Shown here one piece after another: positions 37,820-47,919 of a stretch of 64,000 nucleotides of DNA. Under the pieces are notes generated by a model. It ran no database searches. It was given only the letters and a program-made list of their open reading frames with translations, and was not told where the DNA came from. Origin of the DNA: Roseateles sp. (GTDB lineage: Bacteria > Pseudomonadota > Gammaproteobacteria > Burkholderiales > Burkholderiaceae_C); the NCBI GenBank assembly GCA_016790285.1, contig JAEUPJ010000081.1:1-64000 (forward strand), in the 5' to 3' direction. A program made the translations under genes and the position numbers. Numbering within the stretch: the stretch's first letter is position 1; every line of letters starts with the position of its first letter.

Positions 37820-38713
37820 TCAGGCCGCGCCCACGTGGCGCGACAAGCCCGCCACCAGCGCCTCGAACACCACGCGGCAGGCCGCGTTCTGCCGCAGGTC
37901 CTCGTGCATGGCGACCCAGGTGTCCAGCGGCCAGCTGAAATGATCTGCCAGCACGCGCTCCAGCACAGGCCCGCGCTGGGCCACCGGGAGCTGGCACACG
38001 CCAATGCCGGCGCCCGCGCGCACGAGGGCAAGTTGGGCGAGGTCGGAGTCGCAGCGCACGTTGAAAGCCTCGCGCGTGATGCCGCCCAGCCGCTTGGCAC
38101 CGGCGCGGATGAAGCTCGTGACCGTGTCGAAGCCCACCAGCGTGTGGCCGCGCAACTCCGCCAGCGTCGCCGGGCGGCCGTGGCGGTCCAGGTAGTCGGG
38201 CCGGGCGAAGAACCCAAGTTCGATGTTGCCGATGCGCCGCGCGATCAGCTGACCCTGCTCGGGCGGCGTCATGCGCACGGCGATGTCCGCCTCGCGGCGC
38301 AGCAGGTCCTGCAGCTGGTTGCTCAGCGCCAGCTCCAGGACCACGCCGGGGTGCCGCTCGCGCAGCTCGGCAAACACACCCGCCAACACCTCCACGCCGA
38401 TGATCTCGCTGGCCGTCACGCGCACCGTGCCGGCCACCGTGTCGGCGCGCGACGTCGCGGCGCGCTGCAGCGCCGCAGCGGCGGCTTCCATCTGTTCGGC
38501 ATGGCCGCGCAGCGCCAGCGCGGCCTCGGTGGCCAGCAGGCCCGTGGGCGAGCGGGTGAAGAGCGGCTGTCCCAGCGCCTGCTCCAGGGCCGCCACGTGC
38601 CGCCCGACGGTGGGCTGCGTCAGGCCCAGCGCGCGGGCCGCGCCCGAGAGCGACCCCTCGCGCAGCACGCCGAGAAAGGTGTGGAGCAAGGCCCAAGGGA
38701 CGGTGGAGGTCAT
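37820..38713 (-). CDS. LysR-family transcriptional regulator
   Basis: A 297-residue regulator with an N-terminal winged helix-turn-helix (LHTFLGVLREGSLSGAARALGLTQPTVGRHVAALEQALGQPLFTR) and an effector domain. ATG 38713 was chosen as start because it gives the standard family N-terminus. It is divergent from the epimerase-Anbu operon and is the obvious candidate to control it; a small perfect inverted repeat (ATACA-N4-TGTAT) overlaps its start codon. The inducer is unknown. Confidence 0.9.
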   Translation of the reverse strand: MTSTVPWALLHTFLGVLREGSLSGAARALGLTQPTVGRHVAALEQALGQPLFTRSPTGLLATEAALALRGHAEQMEAAAAALQRAATSRADTVAGTVRVTASEIIGVEVLAGVFAELRERHPGVVLELALSNQLQDLLRREADIAVRMTPPEQGQLIARRIGNIELGFFARPDYLDRHGRPATLAELRGHTLVGFDTVTSFIRAGAKRLGGITREAFNVRCDSDLAQLALVRAGAGIGVCQLPVAQRGPVLERVLADHFSWPLDTWVAMHEDLRQNAACRVVFEALVAGLSRHVGAA

Positions 38714-38725
38714 ACACAAATGTAT
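38712..38725. promoter_or_regulatory. Inverted repeat at the LysR start
   Basis: ATACA-CAAA-TGTAT, a perfect 5-bp inverted repeat with a 4-base spacer, in the 95-base divergent region and overlapping the LysR start codon. It could be an operator for autoregulation; the typical T-N11-A LysR box does not fit exactly. Confidence 0.35.
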
Positions 38726-38808
38726 AGCCGCACGATCACCTTCATCAATTCCCAACGAACCCGCCGGTTTCCAGAATGCCTTCCATCGACAACGACTGGA
38801 GAGCAGTG

Positions 38809-39840
38809 ATGCAAGGCAAGGACAGGACGGCCCTGGTGCTGGGCGCGAGTGGTGGCATCGGCGGCGAGGTGGCGCGCCGCCTGCGGGACGCCGGCTGGCG
38901 GGTGGTGGCGCTGCGCCGCGGCCTGCCTGCGGCGCATGAGGTGCGCGACGGCCTGCACTGGCAGCGTGGCGACGCGCTGAACGCGGCCGACGTGCGGGCC
39001 GCCGCGCGCGGCTGCGGCGTCATCGTGCACGCCGTGAACCCGCCCGGCTACCGCGACTGGGACCGCGTCGTGCTGCCCATGCTCGACCACAGCATCGCCG
39101 CCGCGCAGGCCGAGGGCGCCACGCTCGTGCTGCCGGGCACGGTCTACAACTACGGCCCCGACGCCTTCCCGCTGCTGGCCGAAGACGCCGCTCAGCGCCC
39201 GGTCACCCGCAAGGGCGCCATCCGCGCGGAGATGGAGGCCCGGCTGCGCGCAGCCAGCGGCGCGGCGCTGCGCGTCATCATCGTGCGGGCGGGAGACTTC
39301 TTCGGCCCGCAGGCGCGCAACAGCTGGTTCTCGCAAGGCATGGTCAAGCCCGGCCAGGCGGTGAAGACCATCGCCAACCCGCCGGCAGCGGGCGTGGGCC
39401 ACCAGTGGAGCTACCTGCCCGACGTGGCGCAGGCGATGGTGGAGCTGCTCGGCGTGCGCCACACCCTGCCGGCCTTCAACAACCTCCACATGACCGGCCA
39501 CTGGGACGCTACCGGCCGCGAGATGGCCGAGGCCATCCAGCGCGTCGTGGCCCGGCGCACAGGCCGCACGCCGCGCATCGCGGGCTTTCCGTGGTGGCTG
39601 CTCACGCTGGCTTCGCCCTTCGTGAAGACCTTCCGGGACATGCGCGAAATGCGCTACCTCTGGCAGCGCCCGGTGCGCCTGGCGGGCACGCGGCTTGCCA
39701 CGGTGCTGGGTCGCGAACCCCACACCCCGCTGGACGAGGCGGTGGAGGCGGCCCTGCAAGGCCTGGGCTGCCTGCCCGCCGCGGTGCACGAGGTGGCCGG
39801 CGCGCGCCCCTCGACGCCACTTCACCCCTCACGCCCATGA
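38809..39840 (+). CDS. NAD-dependent epimerase/dehydratase-like protein
   Basis: A 343-residue extended short-chain dehydrogenase. The NAD motif is ALVLGASGGIGGEVARRL (GxxGxxG), and VYNYGP holds the catalytic-type Tyr in a YxxxD/N-like context, with VRAGDFFGP and YLPDVAQAMVELLG later. Substrates in this family include nucleotide sugars and flavonoid-like ketones; none can be named. The start at 38809 follows GGAG (38798-38801). Its stop overlaps the first Anbu gene by 4 bases (ATGA), so the two are coupled. It is the first gene of a probable four-gene operon. Confidence 0.82.
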   Translation: MQGKDRTALVLGASGGIGGEVARRLRDAGWRVVALRRGLPAAHEVRDGLHWQRGDALNAADVRAAARGCGVIVHAVNPPGYRDWDRVVLPMLDHSIAAAQAEGATLVLPGTVYNYGPDAFPLLAEDAAQRPVTRKGAIRAEMEARLRAASGAALRVIIVRAGDFFGPQARNSWFSQGMVKPGQAVKTIANPPAAGVGHQWSYLPDVAQAMVELLGVRHTLPAFNNLHMTGHWDATGREMAEAIQRVVARRTGRTPRIAGFPWWLLTLASPFVKTFRDMREMRYLWQRPVRLAGTRLATVLGREPHTPLDEAVEAALQGLGCLPAAVHEVAGARPSTPLHPSRP

Positions 39841-40577
39841 CCTACTGCGTTGCGATGCGCCTGCGCGCCGGCCTGCTGTTTGCGTCCGACACCCGAACCA
39901 ATGCCGGGGTCGACCAGATCGCCACGTTCCGCAAGATGCACCAGTTCCAGATCCCGCACCAGCGCGAGATCGTGGTGCTCACGGCGGGCAACCTGGCGAC
40001 GACGCAATCCGTCATCTCGCTGCTCAACCAGCGCCTGAAGGGCGACGCCGAGCACCTGCTCAACGTGCCCAGCCTGTACGACGGCGCCGTGCTGCTGGGC
40101 CGCACGGTGCGCGAGGTCATCGAGCGCGACCAGGACCACCACGACCGCCGCCACGTGGACTTCGGCGCCAACTTCCTGCTCGGCGGCCAGATCAAAGGCG
40201 AAGGCCCGCGCCTGTTCCACGTCTACCCGCAGGGCAACTTCATCGAGGCCACCGAGGACACGCCCTACTTCCAGATCGGCGAGAGCAAGTACGGCAAGCC
40301 CATCATCGACCGGGTCGTGCACTACGAGACCACGCCGCTGGACGAAGCCGCCAAGTGCACGCTCGTGAGCTTCGACTCCACCATCCGCTCCAACCTGTCG
40401 GTCGGCCTGCCCATCGACATCCTGATGCTGCGCGCCAACCAGTTCGAGCAGGCCATGAAGCCGCCGCACCGCGTGGAGCGCGACGACCCCTACTTCCTCG
40501 CGCTGCGCAACGGCTGGAGCGCCGGGCTGCGCAAGGTCTTTGACGAACTGCCCGACGAGCCCTGGTTCGAAGTGTGA
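39837..40577 (+). CDS. Anbu-type proteasome-like peptidase (copy 1)
   Basis: A 246-residue Ntn-hydrolase of the Anbu (ancestral beta subunit) group, related to HslV and proteasome beta subunits. If Met1 is removed, Thr becomes residue 1; Asp17 in FASDTRTNAG and Lys32 in FRKM occupy the catalytic Asp/Lys positions. Other blocks are VLTAGNLATTQSV, ANFLLGGQIKGEGPRL and GESKYGKPIIDRV. Its start overlaps the epimerase stop (ATGA). Anbu is normally beside transglutaminase-like and ATP-grasp genes; that context is missing. A near-identical paralogue follows. Confidence 0.9.
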   Translation: MTYCVAMRLRAGLLFASDTRTNAGVDQIATFRKMHQFQIPHQREIVVLTAGNLATTQSVISLLNQRLKGDAEHLLNVPSLYDGAVLLGRTVREVIERDQDHHDRRHVDFGANFLLGGQIKGEGPRLFHVYPQGNFIEATEDTPYFQIGESKYGKPIIDRVVHYETTPLDEAAKCTLVSFDSTIRSNLSVGLPIDILMLRANQFEQAMKPPHRVERDDPYFLALRNGWSAGLRKVFDELPDEPWFEV

Positions 40578-40649
40578 GCTGGCCCCTGCGCGACACGGGC
40601 CATGAAGTGACTCGCGATAATCCGCCGAGCCACTTCGCGCCCCATTCCC
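40578..40649. other. Anbu1-Anbu2 spacer, duplication junction
   Basis: 72 bases. The last 25 (GAGCCACTTC...CCCATTCCC) resemble the bases just before copy 1 (CGCCACTTC...CCTCACGCCC), so the duplicated unit starts about 25 bases before the ATG. GATAAT at 40616-40621 might be a -10, without a matching -35. Confidence 0.5.
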
Positions 40650-41393
40650 ATGACCTACTGCGTTGCGATGCGCCTGCGCTCAGGCTTGCTGTTCGCCTCC
40701 GACACCCGCACCAACGCGGGCGTCGACCACATCGCGAGCTTTCGCAAGATGTACCAGTTCCAGATCCCGCACCAGCGCGAGATCGTGATCCTGACGGCGG
40801 GCAACCTCGCCACGACGCAGTCGGTGCTGTCGCTGCTCAATGCGCGGCTCGCCGGTGAAGGCGAGCACCTGCTCAACGTGCCGAGCCTGTACGACGCCGC
40901 CGTGCTGCTGGGTCGCACGCTCAAGGAAGTCGTCGCGCGCGACGCCGAAGGCGGCGCCCAGCGCCAGGGCGTGGACTTCGGCGCCAACTTCCTGCTCGGC
41001 GGCCAGATCAAGGGCGAGGGCCCGCGCCTGTTCCACGTCTACCCGCAGGGCAACTTCATCGAGGCCACCGAGGACACGCCCTACTTCCAGATCGGCGAGA
41101 GCAAGTACGGCAAGCCCATCATCGACCGCGTCATCCACTACGAGACCACGCCGTTGGACGAAGCCGCCAAGTGCACCCTCGTGAGCTTCGACTCCACCAT
41201 CCGCTCCAACCTGTCGGTCGGCCTGCCCATCGACATCCTGATGCTGCGCGCCAACCAGTTCGAGCAAGCCATGAAGCCGCCGCACCGCGTGGGGCGCGAC
41301 GACCCCTACTTCCTGGCGCTGCGCGATGGCTGGAGCCAGGGGCTCAAGAAGGTCTTCGACGACCTGCCCAACGAGCCGTGGTTCGACGCGTGA
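40650..41393 (+). CDS. Anbu-type proteasome-like peptidase (copy 2)
   Basis: A 247-residue paralogue of the preceding gene, roughly 87% identical by eye. It keeps the N-terminal MTYC, Asp17 and the Lys in FRKM, so both copies should be catalytically competent. Differences concentrate in residues 80-107 (AEGGAQRQG in place of DHHDRRH) and the last 25 residues, whereas the segment from VDFGANFLL to MKPPHRV is almost unchanged, including at DNA level. The two may form mixed rings or differ in expression. Its stop overlaps the next gene's GTG start by four bases. Confidence 0.9.
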   Translation: MTYCVAMRLRSGLLFASDTRTNAGVDHIASFRKMYQFQIPHQREIVILTAGNLATTQSVLSLLNARLAGEGEHLLNVPSLYDAAVLLGRTLKEVVARDAEGGAQRQGVDFGANFLLGGQIKGEGPRLFHVYPQGNFIEATEDTPYFQIGESKYGKPIIDRVIHYETTPLDEAAKCTLVSFDSTIRSNLSVGLPIDILMLRANQFEQAMKPPHRVGRDDPYFLALRDGWSQGLKKVFDDLPNEPWFDA

Positions 41394-42280
41394 CCGTCGA
41401 TCGCCTCGAACGCTGGGAGCACACGTCCCCCATCACCGGCACCGTGCTTCGCAGTTGGCGCAGCGTGCCCAGTGGCAAGCCGCTGCTGCACTTCCTGCAC
41501 GGCAACGGATTCTGCGGCCGGGTGTACGAGCCCATGCTGCAGGCGCTGGCCGCCGACTTCGACCTCTGGCTGTGCGACGCCCCCGGCCACGGCGACAGCG
41601 AGGCAGCCGCGCGCTTCCCCGGCTGGAATGCCTGCGCCAATGCCGCGCTGGAGGCCTTCCAGGCGGGGCGCGGGGCGTATGGCGACGTGCCCTGCTTCGC
41701 CGTGGGCCACAGCTTCGGCGGCGTGCAGACGGGCCTGCTGCTGGCCGAGCCGAAGCAGCCCTTCTCCCGAGCGGTGCTGCTGGACCCGGTGCTGTTCCCG
41801 CCGCCCATGCTGCTGACGGCGCAACTGATCGGCCGCGTGGGCAGCGGCCTCGCCAACCCGCTCGCGCGCGCCTCGCGCCGCCGCCGCCGCGAATGGCCGA
41901 GCCGCGACGAGGCCCGCGAGCGCCTGCGCGGGCGCGGCACCTACCGCGGCTGGACGGAAGCCGCGCTCAACGCCTTCGTCACGCACGCCCTGCGCGACAC
42001 GCCCGCTGGCAGCGTCGAGCTCAAGTGCGCGCCCGAGCTCGAAGCCACGATCTTCAGCACCATGCCCGCCCAGCTGTGGAGCCGGCTCCGGCGCATCCCC
42101 GTGCCCACGCTGCTGGTCCATGGCCGCGAGACCATGCCTTTCGTGCAGGCGGGCTGCGCACGCGCGGCGCGGCACAACCCGTCCCACGTGCACGTGCAGG
42201 TCACGGCCGGCGGCCACTGCTTCATGCAGCAAGACCCGGCCGACGCCGCCGCGCGGGTGCGCGCCCACCTGCTGGGCTGA
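41390..42280 (+). CDS. Alpha/beta hydrolase
   Basis: A 296-residue alpha/beta-hydrolase. HG motif LHFLHGNGFCGRVYEPML, the residue after the second strand in DAPGHGDSE, nucleophile Ser in VGHSFGGVQ, acid near LLVHGRETMPF and catalytic His in AGGHCFMQQDP. The substrate is unknown. GTG 41390 overlaps the stop of the second Anbu gene by four bases (GTGA), so the enzyme is coupled to the peptidase. The coupled gene set (epimerase, Anbu, Anbu, hydrolase) is unlike the usual Anbu locus. Confidence 0.82.
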   Translation: MTVDRLERWEHTSPITGTVLRSWRSVPSGKPLLHFLHGNGFCGRVYEPMLQALAADFDLWLCDAPGHGDSEAAARFPGWNACANAALEAFQAGRGAYGDVPCFAVGHSFGGVQTGLLLAEPKQPFSRAVLLDPVLFPPPMLLTAQLIGRVGSGLANPLARASRRRRREWPSRDEARERLRGRGTYRGWTEAALNAFVTHALRDTPAGSVELKCAPELEATIFSTMPAQLWSRLRRIPVPTLLVHGRETMPFVQAGCARAARHNPSHVHVQVTAGGHCFMQQDPADAAARVRAHLLG

Positions 42281-42292
42281 AGGCCGAGCAGC

Positions 42293-43165
42293 TCAGCCCG
42301 TGACGGGGCCCAGCACGCGCATGGAGTAGTCCACCGCGCGCACGTCCTTGGTCAGCCGGCCGATGGAGATGCGGTCCACGCCCGTGGCCGCGATCCAGCG
42401 CAGCTGGTCCAGCGCCACGCCGCCCGACACCTCCAGCAGCGCGCGGCCCGCATTGACGGCCACGGCCTCGCGCATCTGCGGCTCGGTGAAGTTGTCCAGC
42501 AGCACGCTGACCGCGCCCGAGGCCAGCGCCTCGCGCAGCTGGTCGAGCGTCTCGACCTCGACCTGGATGTCCACGCCCGCGTTCAGCGCCTGGGCCGCGC
42601 GCAAGGCCGCGCCCACGCCACCGGCGGCGGCGATGTGGTTTTCCTTGATCAGGATGCCGGCATACAGCGCCAGGCGCTGGTTCTGGCCGCCACCCACGCG
42701 CACGGCGTACTTCTGCGCCAGGCGCAGGCCCGGAATCGTCTTGCGCGTGTCCAGGATGGCGCAGCCGCGCGGGTTGGGGCTGGCGCCCGCCACCGCGTCC
42801 ACATGGGCGCGGGTGATCGTGGCGGTGCCCGACAGCAGCTGCAGGAAATTCAGCGCTGGCCGCTCCGCGCTCAGCAGCGCCCGGCCATCGGCCTCGATGC
42901 GGCAGACCTCGCTGTCGGCCGTCATGGACGCGCCTTCGTCGTAGAGCCAGTCGATGCGAGCGCTGGTGTCGAGTGTGGCGAACACGCCGTCGAACCAGTC
43001 ACGCCCGCACAGCACCGCCGCTTCGCGCACCAAGACCCGCGCGGCCACGCGCCGGCCGGCGGGCACGAGCTGGGCCGTCCAGTCGCAGCGGCCGATGTCT
43101 TCGGCCAGCGCCTCGCGGATGTTGCGTGCGCGCGCTTCGGCCAGCGTCTCCTCGGCAAACATCAC
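42293..43165 (-). CDS. nadC: Nicotinate-nucleotide pyrophosphorylase (carboxylating)
   Basis: A 290-residue quinolinate phosphoribosyltransferase that makes nicotinate mononucleotide in NAD synthesis. The blocks EDIGRCDWTAQLVP, LNFLQLLSGTATITRAHVDAV, ILDTRKTIPGLRLAQKYAVRVGGGQNQRLAL, ILIKENHI and SGGVALDQLRWIAATGVDRISIG are diagnostic. The length matches. Its start overlaps the FAH-family stop by 4 bases (ATGA), so it is second in a two-gene operon. Confidence 0.96.
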   Translation of the reverse strand: MMFAEETLAEARARNIREALAEDIGRCDWTAQLVPAGRRVAARVLVREAAVLCGRDWFDGVFATLDTSARIDWLYDEGASMTADSEVCRIEADGRALLSAERPALNFLQLLSGTATITRAHVDAVAGASPNPRGCAILDTRKTIPGLRLAQKYAVRVGGGQNQRLALYAGILIKENHIAAAGGVGAALRAAQALNAGVDIQVEVETLDQLREALASGAVSVLLDNFTEPQMREAVAVNAGRALLEVSGGVALDQLRWIAATGVDRISIGRLTKDVRAVDYSMRVLGPVTG

Positions 43166-44788: not shown

Positions 44789-45525
44789 CGCCCGCCGGCC
44801 ACGTCCAGCATGGCGCCCACCGTGTAGCTGGCCGCATCGCTGAGCAGCCAGGCGATGGCCTCGGCGATCTCCTCCGGCCGGCCCAGGCGCTGGATGGGAA
44901 TGGTGGATGCGGCGTCGTGCAGGTCCAGGCCGCTGTCGGCGTGGATGTCGGTCTCGATGATGCCGGGGCGCACGCCGTTGACGCGGATGCCTTCGCCGAT
45001 GAGCTCACGCGCGAGGCCCTTGGTCAGCGTGTCCACGGCGCCCTTGCTGGCGGCGTAGTCCACGTAGATGCCGGCCGAGCCGAACTCGGCCGCGCGCGAA
45101 CTCAGGTTGACGATGGCGCCTCCCGCGCCGCCGTGGCGGGTGCTCATGCGGCGCGCCGCGTGCTGGCAGCACAGCAGCGTGCCGATCACGTTGACGTCGA
45201 AGACACGGCGCCAGCGCGCGGTGGTCATCGTCTCCAGCCGCCCGGCCGGGGCCACGATGCCGGCGTTGTTGACCAGCCCCGCCAGACGCCCGCCGGCGGC
45301 GTCCAGGCGCTCGAACATCGCGGCCACCTGCGCCTCGTCGGCCACGTCGGCCTGCAGCACGAGGGCACGCCGGCCGAGCTGCTCGATGCGCGCAGCCAGC
45401 GCCTGGGCGGCAGCGGCGTCGCGCGCGAAGTTCAGGGCCACGTCCCAGCCCGCCTGCGCGCAACGCCAGGCGGTGGCGGCACCGATACCGCGTGAACTTC
45501 CCGTGATCAATATCCAGTCCGGCAT
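44785..45525 (-). CDS. Short-chain dehydrogenase/reductase
   Basis: A 246-residue classical SDR. The cofactor motif is ILITGSSRGIGAA, the NNAG motif LVNNAGI, catalytic Ser in NLSSRAAEF and Tyr-x3-Lys in YVDYAASKGAVDTL, and a C-terminal VRPGIIETDIH. Sequence does not show the substrate. FabG-like and sugar-dehydrogenase-like roles both fit. It ends four bases into the end of the RlpA gene (convergent) and its start is opposite the diguanylate cyclase. Confidence 0.9.
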   Translation of the reverse strand: MPDWILITGSSRGIGAATAWRCAQAGWDVALNFARDAAAAQALAARIEQLGRRALVLQADVADEAQVAAMFERLDAAGGRLAGLVNNAGIVAPAGRLETMTTARWRRVFDVNVIGTLLCCQHAARRMSTRHGGAGGAIVNLSSRAAEFGSAGIYVDYAASKGAVDTLTKGLARELIGEGIRVNGVRPGIIETDIHADSGLDLHDAASTIPIQRLGRPEEIAEAIAWLLSDAASYTVGAMLDVAGGR

Positions 45526-45568
45526 GCCCGGCATTGTGGCGTTGTCGGAGAAGATGCAAGACCTGCCC

Positions 45569-46759
45569 ATGAATTTCCTCGACGTCCCGACCCTGCTGCA
45601 GGTCAGCGCCACTTTCAACGTGATCGCCGCGCTGGCCTGGCTCGTGCTTGCCAAGGCCTTCCGCATCGCGCCGCGTGCGAGCTGGCTGATGGTGGCCAGC
45701 CACCTGGTGCGCGTGCCGCACCTGAGCTGCGGCGACTGCATGGCCACAGCCCCCGTGGCCGTGCGCCTGGTCATCCCCGAGCTGCTGCTGATGTCCAGCA
45801 TCGTGCTGCTGCTGCTGGCGCTGCGCCGCATGCTGGGCAGCCGCGTGCGCCCGCGCCACATCGCGTGGATCAGTGGCGTGGGTGCCGTGAGCGTCGTGGC
45901 CGGCGCGGTCAGCGGCTCGGCCACGGCGCCGCAGCTGGCCAACATGCTGAGCATCGCGCTGCTGGCCGGCCTGGCCGTGCGCGAGATCTCGCGCGGCGTC
46001 GGCGACAGGCTCTCACGCGCCATCACGGTCTGCACGGCGCTCCCCTTCGCCTTGCTGTCCCTGCTGAGCCTGATACAGGCGGCGATGCTGCTGACCGTGC
46101 ACGGCTGGGGCGAGCGGCTGCTGGCCAGCCCGCTGCCCGGGCCGTGGCGCGCGCTGATCGGGCTCGTCGTCACCGTGGGCATCAGCCTGACCCTGATCGC
46201 GCTGATGATCTGGCGGCTGGTCATGCGCATCCAGCACCTCACCCACCGCGACCCGCTGACGGGTGCGCTGAACCGGCGCGCGTTCGAGCAGGCCCTGGCC
46301 GAGGCGCAGGCGCAGCTCGCCCGCGGGCGCGGCTTTGCCTTGGTGATGATCGACATCGACCACTTCAAGCGCATCAACGACCAGCACGGCCACGCCGCCG
46401 GCGACGCGGCGCTGCTGCACTGCGTGGCGCTGTGGCAGGCCAACCTGCGCGAGTTCGACCGCCTGGGCCGGCTCGGCGGCGAGGAGTTCTGCGCGCTGCT
46501 GCCGCTGGCCACGCCCGGCGACCTGACGACGGCCGCGGCCGTCGCCGAACGGCTGCGCAGCCAGCTGGCCGCCACGCCCTTGCGCTGGGGCAGCATCGAG
46601 CTCGTGCTGACGGCGAGTTTCGGCGTCGCCCTGCCGGCGCAGGAAGACGCGGGCGGCGAAGTGGCCCTGGTGCGTGCCGATGCCGAGCTCTACCGCGCCA
46701 AGGCCGAGGGCCGCAACCGCGTCTGCGTGGCGACGCACCTGGTGCCGGCGGCCGCATGA
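45569..46759 (+). CDS. Membrane diguanylate cyclase (copy 1)
   Basis: A 396-residue protein with about six to seven N-terminal spans (residues 1-225) and a C-terminal GGDEF domain. The active loop reads GRLGGEEFCALLP, and RxxD (REFD) five residues before it is the c-di-GMP feedback site; RDPLTGALNRRAFEQ and IDIDHFKRINDQHGHAAGD are the substrate and metal motifs. It should make cyclic di-GMP from two GTP. The start at 45569 is supported by alignment with the second copy. A weak GGAG lies further upstream. Confidence 0.88.
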   Translation: MNFLDVPTLLQVSATFNVIAALAWLVLAKAFRIAPRASWLMVASHLVRVPHLSCGDCMATAPVAVRLVIPELLLMSSIVLLLLALRRMLGSRVRPRHIAWISGVGAVSVVAGAVSGSATAPQLANMLSIALLAGLAVREISRGVGDRLSRAITVCTALPFALLSLLSLIQAAMLLTVHGWGERLLASPLPGPWRALIGLVVTVGISLTLIALMIWRLVMRIQHLTHRDPLTGALNRRAFEQALAEAQAQLARGRGFALVMIDIDHFKRINDQHGHAAGDAALLHCVALWQANLREFDRLGRLGGEEFCALLPLATPGDLTTAAAVAERLRSQLAATPLRWGSIELVLTASFGVALPAQEDAGGEVALVRADAELYRAKAEGRNRVCVATHLVPAAA

Positions 46760-47919
46760 CCGTCACGCCCGCCCAGACCCAGACGCTGCTGGCGGCCGTC
46801 ACCCTCGTGGCGACGGTGGGCACCGTCGTGTGGCTGGCCATGGCGCTGGTCGCGCGCATCGCCCCGCGGGCGTCGCTGGCGATGGCCTGCGCCAACGCCG
46901 CCGCGGCTGCGGCCCTCACGCTGCACTCGCTGCGCGGCGCGCTGCCCGACGCCGTCACCTACTGGCCCGGCGACGTGCTGGCCGTCGCGTCCTTTGCGCT
47001 GCTGGCGGCTGCGGTGTCGGACATCACCGCCCGGCAGCTGGCCTGGCGGGCCGGCGCGGCGACCGTGGCCGTGTCTGCCGTGCTGCTCTTTGGCCTGCCC
47101 TACGAGGGCGACCTGCGCTGGCACTCGCGCATCGTCGGCCTGGCCAGCGCCGGGCTCATGATGATGGCCGGCCTGCAGGCGCGCCAGGCACTCAGCGGTC
47201 GCGGGGACGGGCGGCTGTCGCCCCTGCCGCTGACGCTGCCGCTCTTCCTCATCGCGGTGCTGCTCGGCGCACGCGCCGTGGAGACGCTCGTGAACCCGGG
47301 CCACACGCCCGACATGCGCGTGCCCACCGAGTTCAACCTCGTGTTCCTGTGGGGCGCACTCGTGCTGACGCTGCTGCAGAACGCCACGCTGGCCTTCCTC
47401 GTGATGATGCGGCTCATCCTGCGCATCGAGAGGCTGCTGCAGCACGACCCGCTCACCGGCACGCTCAACCGCCGCGCCTTCGACAAGGCGCTGGAGGACG
47501 CGCACGCGGCCTTCCTGCTGGGCCGCGGCTACGCCCTGGTGATGATCGACATGGACCGCTTCAAGCAGCTCAACGACACCCTCGGCCACGCGGCGGGCGA
47601 CGCGGCCCTGCGGCAGATGGTGCAGGAGCTGCGCCCCTGCGTGCGCGACGTCGACCGCTTTGGCCGGCTGGGCGGCGAGGAGTTCTGCGTGCTGCTGCCC
47701 GACACCGACCTCGCCGGTGCTGCCCTCGTGGCCGAGCGCATGCGCATGCTGGTGGACGCCGCCCCGCTGCGCTGGCTGGAGCAGGACTGGCCGCTCTCCG
47801 CGAGCTTCGGCATCGCCGAGGCCGAGCGCGGCGACACCTGGGGCACGACCGTGCTCGCCCGCGCCGACGCGGCGCTCTACCGCGCCAAGGGGCAGGGCCG
47901 CAACGTCGTGCAGGCCTGA
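46756..47919 (+). CDS. Membrane diguanylate cyclase (copy 2)
   Basis: A 387-residue membrane GGDEF protein and tandem paralogue of the preceding gene. Motifs are HDPLTGTLNRRAFDK, DMDRFKQLNDTLGHAAGD, RxxD (RDVD) and GRLGGEEFCVLLP, so it too looks active and feedback-inhibited. Similarity to copy 1 is strong in the cyclase domain and weak in the membrane part, which suggests different signals. The start overlaps the previous stop by 4 bases (ATGA). Confidence 0.9.
   Translation: MTVTPAQTQTLLAAVTLVATVGTVVWLAMALVARIAPRASLAMACANAAAAAALTLHSLRGALPDAVTYWPGDVLAVASFALLAAAVSDITARQLAWRAGAATVAVSAVLLFGLPYEGDLRWHSRIVGLASAGLMMMAGLQARQALSGRGDGRLSPLPLTLPLFLIAVLLGARAVETLVNPGHTPDMRVPTEFNLVFLWGALVLTLLQNATLAFLVMMRLILRIERLLQHDPLTGTLNRRAFDKALEDAHAAFLLGRGYALVMIDMDRFKQLNDTLGHAAGDAALRQMVQELRPCVRDVDRFGRLGGEEFCVLLPDTDLAGAALVAERMRMLVDAAPLRWLEQDWPLSASFGIAEAERGDTWGTTVLARADAALYRAKGQGRNVVQA

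Follow-up and report, generated by a model that had tools for sequence, protein, structure and literature searches.

The window considered here is a stretch of 64,000 nucleotides from Roseateles sp., of the Roseateles/Pelomonas group (assembly GCA_016790285.1, contig JAEUPJ010000081.1, positions 1-64,000 of the forward strand). It carries, side by side and in the same orientation, two intact genes for Anbu, a bacterial protein of the proteasome family, and their products, Anbu1 and Anbu2, are 87% identical. Open reading frame (ORF) calls and Pfam matches bear out the layout given in a preliminary description of the region: a short-chain dehydrogenase/reductase (SDR) or epimerase-like gene, Anbu1, Anbu2 and an alpha/beta hydrolase gene follow one another, with an ATGA overlap at the first junction, a GTGA overlap at the last and a divergent LysR regulator (Table 1). 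The explanation we prefer, to which we give a probability of roughly 0.55, is that Anbu has undergone a replacement of its partners and that a private second Anbu has been added, which probably co-assembles with the first.

The genes that usually accompany Anbu, for ATP-grasp, alpha-E and transglutaminase proteins, do not adjoin it in the window. Outside this clade, ATP-grasp and alpha-E genes stand beside Anbu at 55 of 62 Anbu loci, and in sister genera (L035, L171 and L173) the full ATP-grasp/alpha-E/transglutaminase/Anbu operon lies directly beside nadC. The window Anbu descends from this canonical operon, but the three partner genes are missing from its site. In the trees, where support is quoted as paired values for each grouping, the sister group of the genus's Anbu proteins is that of the canonical Inhella operons (100/99). 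For alpha-E and ATP-grasp, the proteins of the genus belong to the other branch of the family (100/99 and 100/100) and are separated from those of the Inhella/Roseateles operons. The canonical outliers L175 and L176 have long branches near the other branch of the alpha-E tree, and the Yersinia/Rahnella sequences also carry a long-branch flag; the split rests on none of these.

The genome does have two alpha-E genes, one on contig C42, after an ATP-grasp gene, and one on C23, fused to an ATP-grasp domain and near genes for a DUF2126/transglutaminase protein, a second alpha/beta hydrolase and a small transglutaminase-like protein. The ends of C42 (L007) and C23 (L008) overlap by exactly 120 bp, between the alpha-E and the DUF2126/transglutaminase genes, and the cluster genes form one locus in seven of the seven relatives read. 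This cluster does not adjoin Anbu and its branch differs from that of the canonical operon. A few 25-mers of the 120-bp overlap are also found in L141 and L145, and an Abhydrolase_1 alpha/beta hydrolase lies within the cluster both here (L008:8726-9568) and in all seven relatives (L141-L147). We reject the reading of these as canonical partners that have been displaced, their ATP-grasp and alpha-E belonging to a different branch. Nor was a canonical alpha-E found in the 20 genomes of the genus when the C42 alpha-E was used as the one query (E up to 1e-30), because 19 of the 20 give a single match of the C42 type, 81-96% identical in the others. A canonical transglutaminase query gives only partial matches in the genus, at 42-48% identity, and 18 of 19 of these have the position or length of the other cluster's protein.

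The occurrence of Anbu was followed in two overlapping sets, one of 120 genomes (this one counted; 20 belong to the genus) and one of 160 genomes of the family. In the family set, 131 genomes have both Anbu and alpha-E, 11 have alpha-E without Anbu, 18 have neither and none has Anbu without alpha-E (Fisher 1.3e-16, with kinship ignored). In at least 20 of the 131, Anbu has a listed alpha-E no farther than 12 kb away, and in at most 111 the two are apart; one alpha-E is present in 17 of those 20 genomes, and two or more in 99 of the 111. The sole genus genome without Anbu (G006) is also without alpha-E and transglutaminase matches. Because all 131 Anbu genomes carry alpha-E, few of them beside Anbu among the alpha-E genes listed, it seems that Anbu needs an alpha-E system somewhere in the genome, linked or unlinked, and that adjacency is not required.

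Table 1. Features of the Anbu locus, in window coordinates
Feature	Position	Strand	Remarks
LysR regulator, divergent	37820-38755	-	Pfam LysR_substrate 1.1e-31
SDR/epimerase-like gene	38809-39840	+	ORF; Pfam Epimerase 2.5e-11; neighbour, judged outside the Anbu system
Anbu1, second copy, 246 aa	39837-40577	+	Pfam Proteasome 1.1e-8; ATGA overlap with SDR gene
Homogenised tract in Anbu1 (approximate)	40167-40487	+	residues 111-217
Gap between copies, 72 nt	40578-40649	+	ATAAT at -33 from Anbu2 start
Anbu2, resident copy, 247 aa	40650-41393	+	Pfam Proteasome 9.9e-8; starts 72 nt past Anbu1 stop
Homogenised tract in Anbu2 (approximate)	40983-41303	+	residues 112-218
Alpha/beta hydrolase	41390-42280	+	Abhydrolase_6 3.3e-20; GTGA overlap with Anbu2; neighbour, judged outside the Anbu system
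nadC, syntenic anchor	42293-43165	-	full canonical Anbu operon adjoins nadC in sister genera

The two Anbu genes probably differ in descent. NadC and FAH of the window group with L009, L010 (Roseateles puraquae) and L014 (98/97), as does the hydrolase (99/97), and the SDR protein groups with L010 and L014 (100/98), L009 not being included. Anbu2 has the same relatives, L009, L010 and L014 (96/84 for the whole protein, 87/92 on DNA outside a homogenised middle tract), and is, on its descent, the resident gene. Anbu1 groups with L016, L019, L020 and L052 (100/99 whole, 100/99 on the parts outside the tract). Outside the tract, L020, L052, L019 and L016 all stand closer to it than Anbu2 does; on the 5' part Anbu2 takes 16th place of 19. 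Values of dN/dS, calculated for 11 pairs, are 0.18-0.23 for Anbu1 outside the tract against the four relatives, and Anbu1 is therefore under constraint. The record for L009 is titled Methylotenera; its Anbu, NadC and FAH group with Roseateles puraquae, and the title is probably wrong.

Inside the tract the relationship is quite different. The two copies differ at 5% of third positions in codons 122-222 versus 27-35% elsewhere, and dS is 0.084 in the tract versus 0.418 elsewhere. Amongst the 190 pairs of Anbu sequences compared, Anbu1 and Anbu2 are in this part the most alike of all, at 92.3% of variable sites, the next being L011/L013 at 91.5%; site shuffling reached the best segment in 1 of 10,000 trials and the longest run in 91 of 10,000. 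Anbu1 is thus probably a second copy with a descent of its own, gained by acquisition or recombination and later partly homogenised. Its source would be a different lineage within the genus, the route transfer or recombination, and its landing place the tail of the SDR gene; gene conversion would then have made its middle part like that of Anbu2.

Both proteins match the solved Anbu chains 5nyw, 5loy, 5lox, 5nyj and 5nyf (phmmer, E 5e-71 to 7e-95), and the predicted Anbu1 monomer (mean pLDDT 87.2, pTM 0.86) has as its nearest structure the Yersinia bercovieri Anbu 5nyw (TM about 0.9, Foldseek). The preliminary description had both copies keeping the catalytic Thr1, Asp17 and Lys, and this holds: mature Thr1, Asp17, Arg19 and Lys32 are the same in the two, and the Thr directly after the start Met, Asp17 and Lys32 are invariant over 22 aligned Anbu. 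The pocket residues T20, F30, T48, L52 and T55 are also shared. By comparison with the part of PMC5666114 available, they make the S1 pocket of both copies one of the amphiphilic Anbu-1 type, as against the basic Anbu-2 pocket; the same part reports that epoxomicin and MG132 bind Anbu Thr1. In length, fold, Thr1/Asp17/Lys32, the C-terminal helix H5 (residues 218-237 of the Anbu1 model) and pocket residues T20, F30, T48 and L52, the window copies resemble the Anbu-1 subtype (Pa-Anbu 5lox, Yb-Anbu 5nyw and the designed 5loy), although Pa-Anbu has S55 where they have T55. Both would accordingly seem to be N-terminal-threonine hydrolases with one S1 pocket, and a split of specificity between them is unsupported, the pocket residues being equal. 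Of the preliminary view of a ‘rearranged or diversified’ system, the first half stands, in that Anbu is apart from the ATP-grasp, alpha-E and transglutaminase genes and is present as two intact copies; diversification is weak, with active-site and S1-pocket residues equal.

The distribution of the differences between the copies bears on whether they can share a particle. Of 33 differences, 14 are in H2 and the following loop (residues 80-110), two in residues 111-217 and four in H5. Lateral-contact positions A53 and N133/N134 are present in both copies; the corresponding lateral-contact crosslinks reported for Pa-Anbu and consensus Anbu, again in the available part of PMC5666114, are at A53 and N132/N133. 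Since the segment that bears the lateral contact hardly differs between the copies, and their C-terminal dimer helices differ only mildly, the mixed ring put forward in the preliminary description is plausible, and an Anbu1/Anbu2 split ring with a single specificity would be the most likely form.

The sequence between the copies suggests how they are expressed. The ATAAT box in the gap before Anbu2, at -33 and resembling a -10 element, has counterparts in the relatives of the genus, of which 18 (L009-L025 and L052) make up the synteny sample: ATAAT is found at -32 to -36 before Anbu in 12, TAACAT at -36 to -39 in four, TACCAT in one and none of these in L023. By shuffling, the chance of such a box is 0.7% per 50 nt. 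No ATAAT-like box occurs upstream of Anbu1. The 35 nt before Anbu2 (TGACTCGCGATAATCC...) are also found upstream of the single Anbu in L014, and Anbu1 and Anbu2 are immediately preceded by similar sequences over 24 bases. In L010, read from its sequence, the SDR frame crosses the same box and ends in an ATGA overlap with the single Anbu; the SDR overlap is therefore older than the second copy. Because the conserved box stands before Anbu2 and none before Anbu1, SDR-Anbu1 and Anbu2-hydrolase are probably separate transcripts, Anbu2 presumably being read from its own promoter. The single four-gene unit originally proposed does not agree with this, since a promoter-like box, conserved upstream of the single Anbu genes of relatives, stands between the two copies.

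The observed synteny, trees and co-occurrence, together with the sequence itself, lead us to infer the following course of events. Anbu2 would be the resident ortholog of the Anbu-1 kind, which stayed next to nadC, where the operon once stood, when the ATP-grasp, alpha-E and transglutaminase genes were lost. Joined by the imported Anbu1, it would now most likely form one split-ring particle with one specificity. This particle would act as a peptidase or amidase on the products of ATP-grasp/alpha-E/transglutaminase chemistry, in the same pathway as elsewhere, the pathway being now supplied by the unlinked and differently descended ATP-grasp/alpha-E/DUF2126 cluster. A stronger version is offered more tentatively, as a possibility well short of even odds: that the Anbu of one operon lineage serves the cluster of another by acting on its product and not through a fitted complex, and that an imported Anbu has been kept compatible by conversion across the lateral-contact region, so that the mixed split ring would mark a move, in a bacterium, from a single proteasome-like subunit to several.

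Several points weigh against the preferred explanation. The conversion test is not clean: at other places in the gene, two of the 190 pairs (Anbu2/L025 and L013/L025) have segment scores above that of Anbu1/Anbu2, and no branch in the tree built from the middle part is strongly supported. The mosaic may in part be an assembly effect, as it is seen in a single assembly, in 107 contigs, with 95.11% completeness and 3.85% contamination; an exact 110-bp stretch is common to both copies. A consensus promoter scan of the upstream sequences found no full sigma-70 site. Finally, in the part of PMC6376114 available, Anbu co-expressed with its operon proteins gave no stable complex and no peptidase activity, so that partnership and activity remain unproven even for ordinary Anbu, whose function is still described as open in the corresponding part of PMC8665760.

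The main rival is an old duplication, by which the genus started out with both Anbu forms and almost every species later lost one of them. The occurrence of both forms in the genus, on separate branches, is what this would predict, and the similar 24 bases in front of the two genes suit it as well, but the forms are found together in only one of the 19 Anbu-bearing genus genomes, so many separate losses would be needed and we consider it doubtful. A simple duplication in which the resident gene was recently copied in tandem and Anbu1 then drifted would explain at once why the copies are adjacent, alike in orientation and in the bases directly upstream, and so little different at third positions in the middle part. 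It is disfavoured by the trees, which place Anbu1 outside the tract nearer to the four other relatives than to Anbu2, and is unlikely. Still more unlikely is a merging of two strains in the sample into an apparent tandem. The contig number, the contamination and the exact shared stretch make this worth considering; it can be argued, however, that a switch at the shared stretch would give one mosaic gene and not two, and that the junction is a gap whose 3' half matches the upstream region of L014.

The least probable of the alternatives is a dedicated pathway of four genes, SDR, two Anbu and hydrolase. It draws on the two overlaps and on the position of the hydrolase, the best genome-wide match to the window hydrolase being directly 3' of Anbu in 78 of the 131 Anbu-bearing family genomes. 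The order SDR-Anbu-Anbu-hydrolase is not conserved, however: the neighbours vary in the 18 relatives, and Anbu is always single. In seven of the 18 an SDR match stands no more than about 150 bp upstream of Anbu, and nine have one somewhere in the stretch; a hydrolase lies between Anbu and nadC in six, and both neighbours flank the one Anbu in three; the LysR regulator accompanies the SDR gene in relatives, not Anbu. Across the wider family, mutS is often found before Anbu and a hydrolase after it, the latter with about 29% identity to that of the window. A mutS gene cluster is present at 21 of 40 loci, and in many family genomes a detached Anbu stands between mutS and an alpha/beta hydrolase (L148-L167, L177, L179, L182, L184, L187). 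As a control, 20 stretches around hydrolase matches were checked for mutS and Anbu. The hydrolase was directly beside mutS, with no Anbu between, in eight; of these genomes three have no Anbu (L193, L194, L195), four have it next to alpha-E elsewhere (L198, L199, L201, L203) and one has it elsewhere (L204). The remaining stretches had mutS about 4 kb off (four), no mutS match (six) or orthologs 53% identical to the window hydrolase that are not at Anbu (two, L206 and L207). The hydrolase is therefore rejected as a conserved partner; its adjacency to Anbu is positional, since it adjoins mutS without Anbu, and Anbu appears to have landed between the two. The conserved box of Anbu2 also argues against a four-gene pathway, and membership of the neighbouring epimerase and hydrolase in the Anbu system is not supported.

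Two Anbu genes in one genome are known and not rare; what is rare is that close copies lie in tandem. Anbu is present in 84 of the first set of 120 genomes, and within the genus 18 of the other genomes have one Anbu each. The genome of the window has these two and no third match. Two Anbu occur elsewhere in G094, G127, G150, G158 and G168, each time on different contigs or more than 1 Mb apart, and no other Anbu tandem was seen among the genomes of both sets searched. One of the two Anbu matches has an internal stop in G094 (C16:226-954) and likewise in G158 (C107:29740-30462). Published pairs, in the parts of the sources available, are of distinct Anbu-1 and Anbu-2 subtypes or are two paralogues of C. 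hutchinsonii, unlike the near-identical tandem here. In the literature searched, neither tandem Anbu genes nor partner replacement was the subject of any title or abstract listed, which is weak evidence as subscription journals are mostly outside its coverage. The tandem alone is a private feature of one assembly and mildly surprising.

What specialists could use is that, throughout the genus, Anbu is parted from the partners of its own operon. An Anbu cut off from the usual operon, in a genome where the only partner enzymes found are of another branch, separates the idea that it works in a complex with those partners from the idea that it acts on their product, which the usual operon cannot do, and makes this genome a natural test of what Anbu needs to work. 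The tandem with its homogenised middle parts offers a small case in which to test subunit diversification in the proteasome family. Elsewhere in the window, two neighbouring and overlapping genes with GGDEF domains lie at 45068-46759 and 46756-47919.

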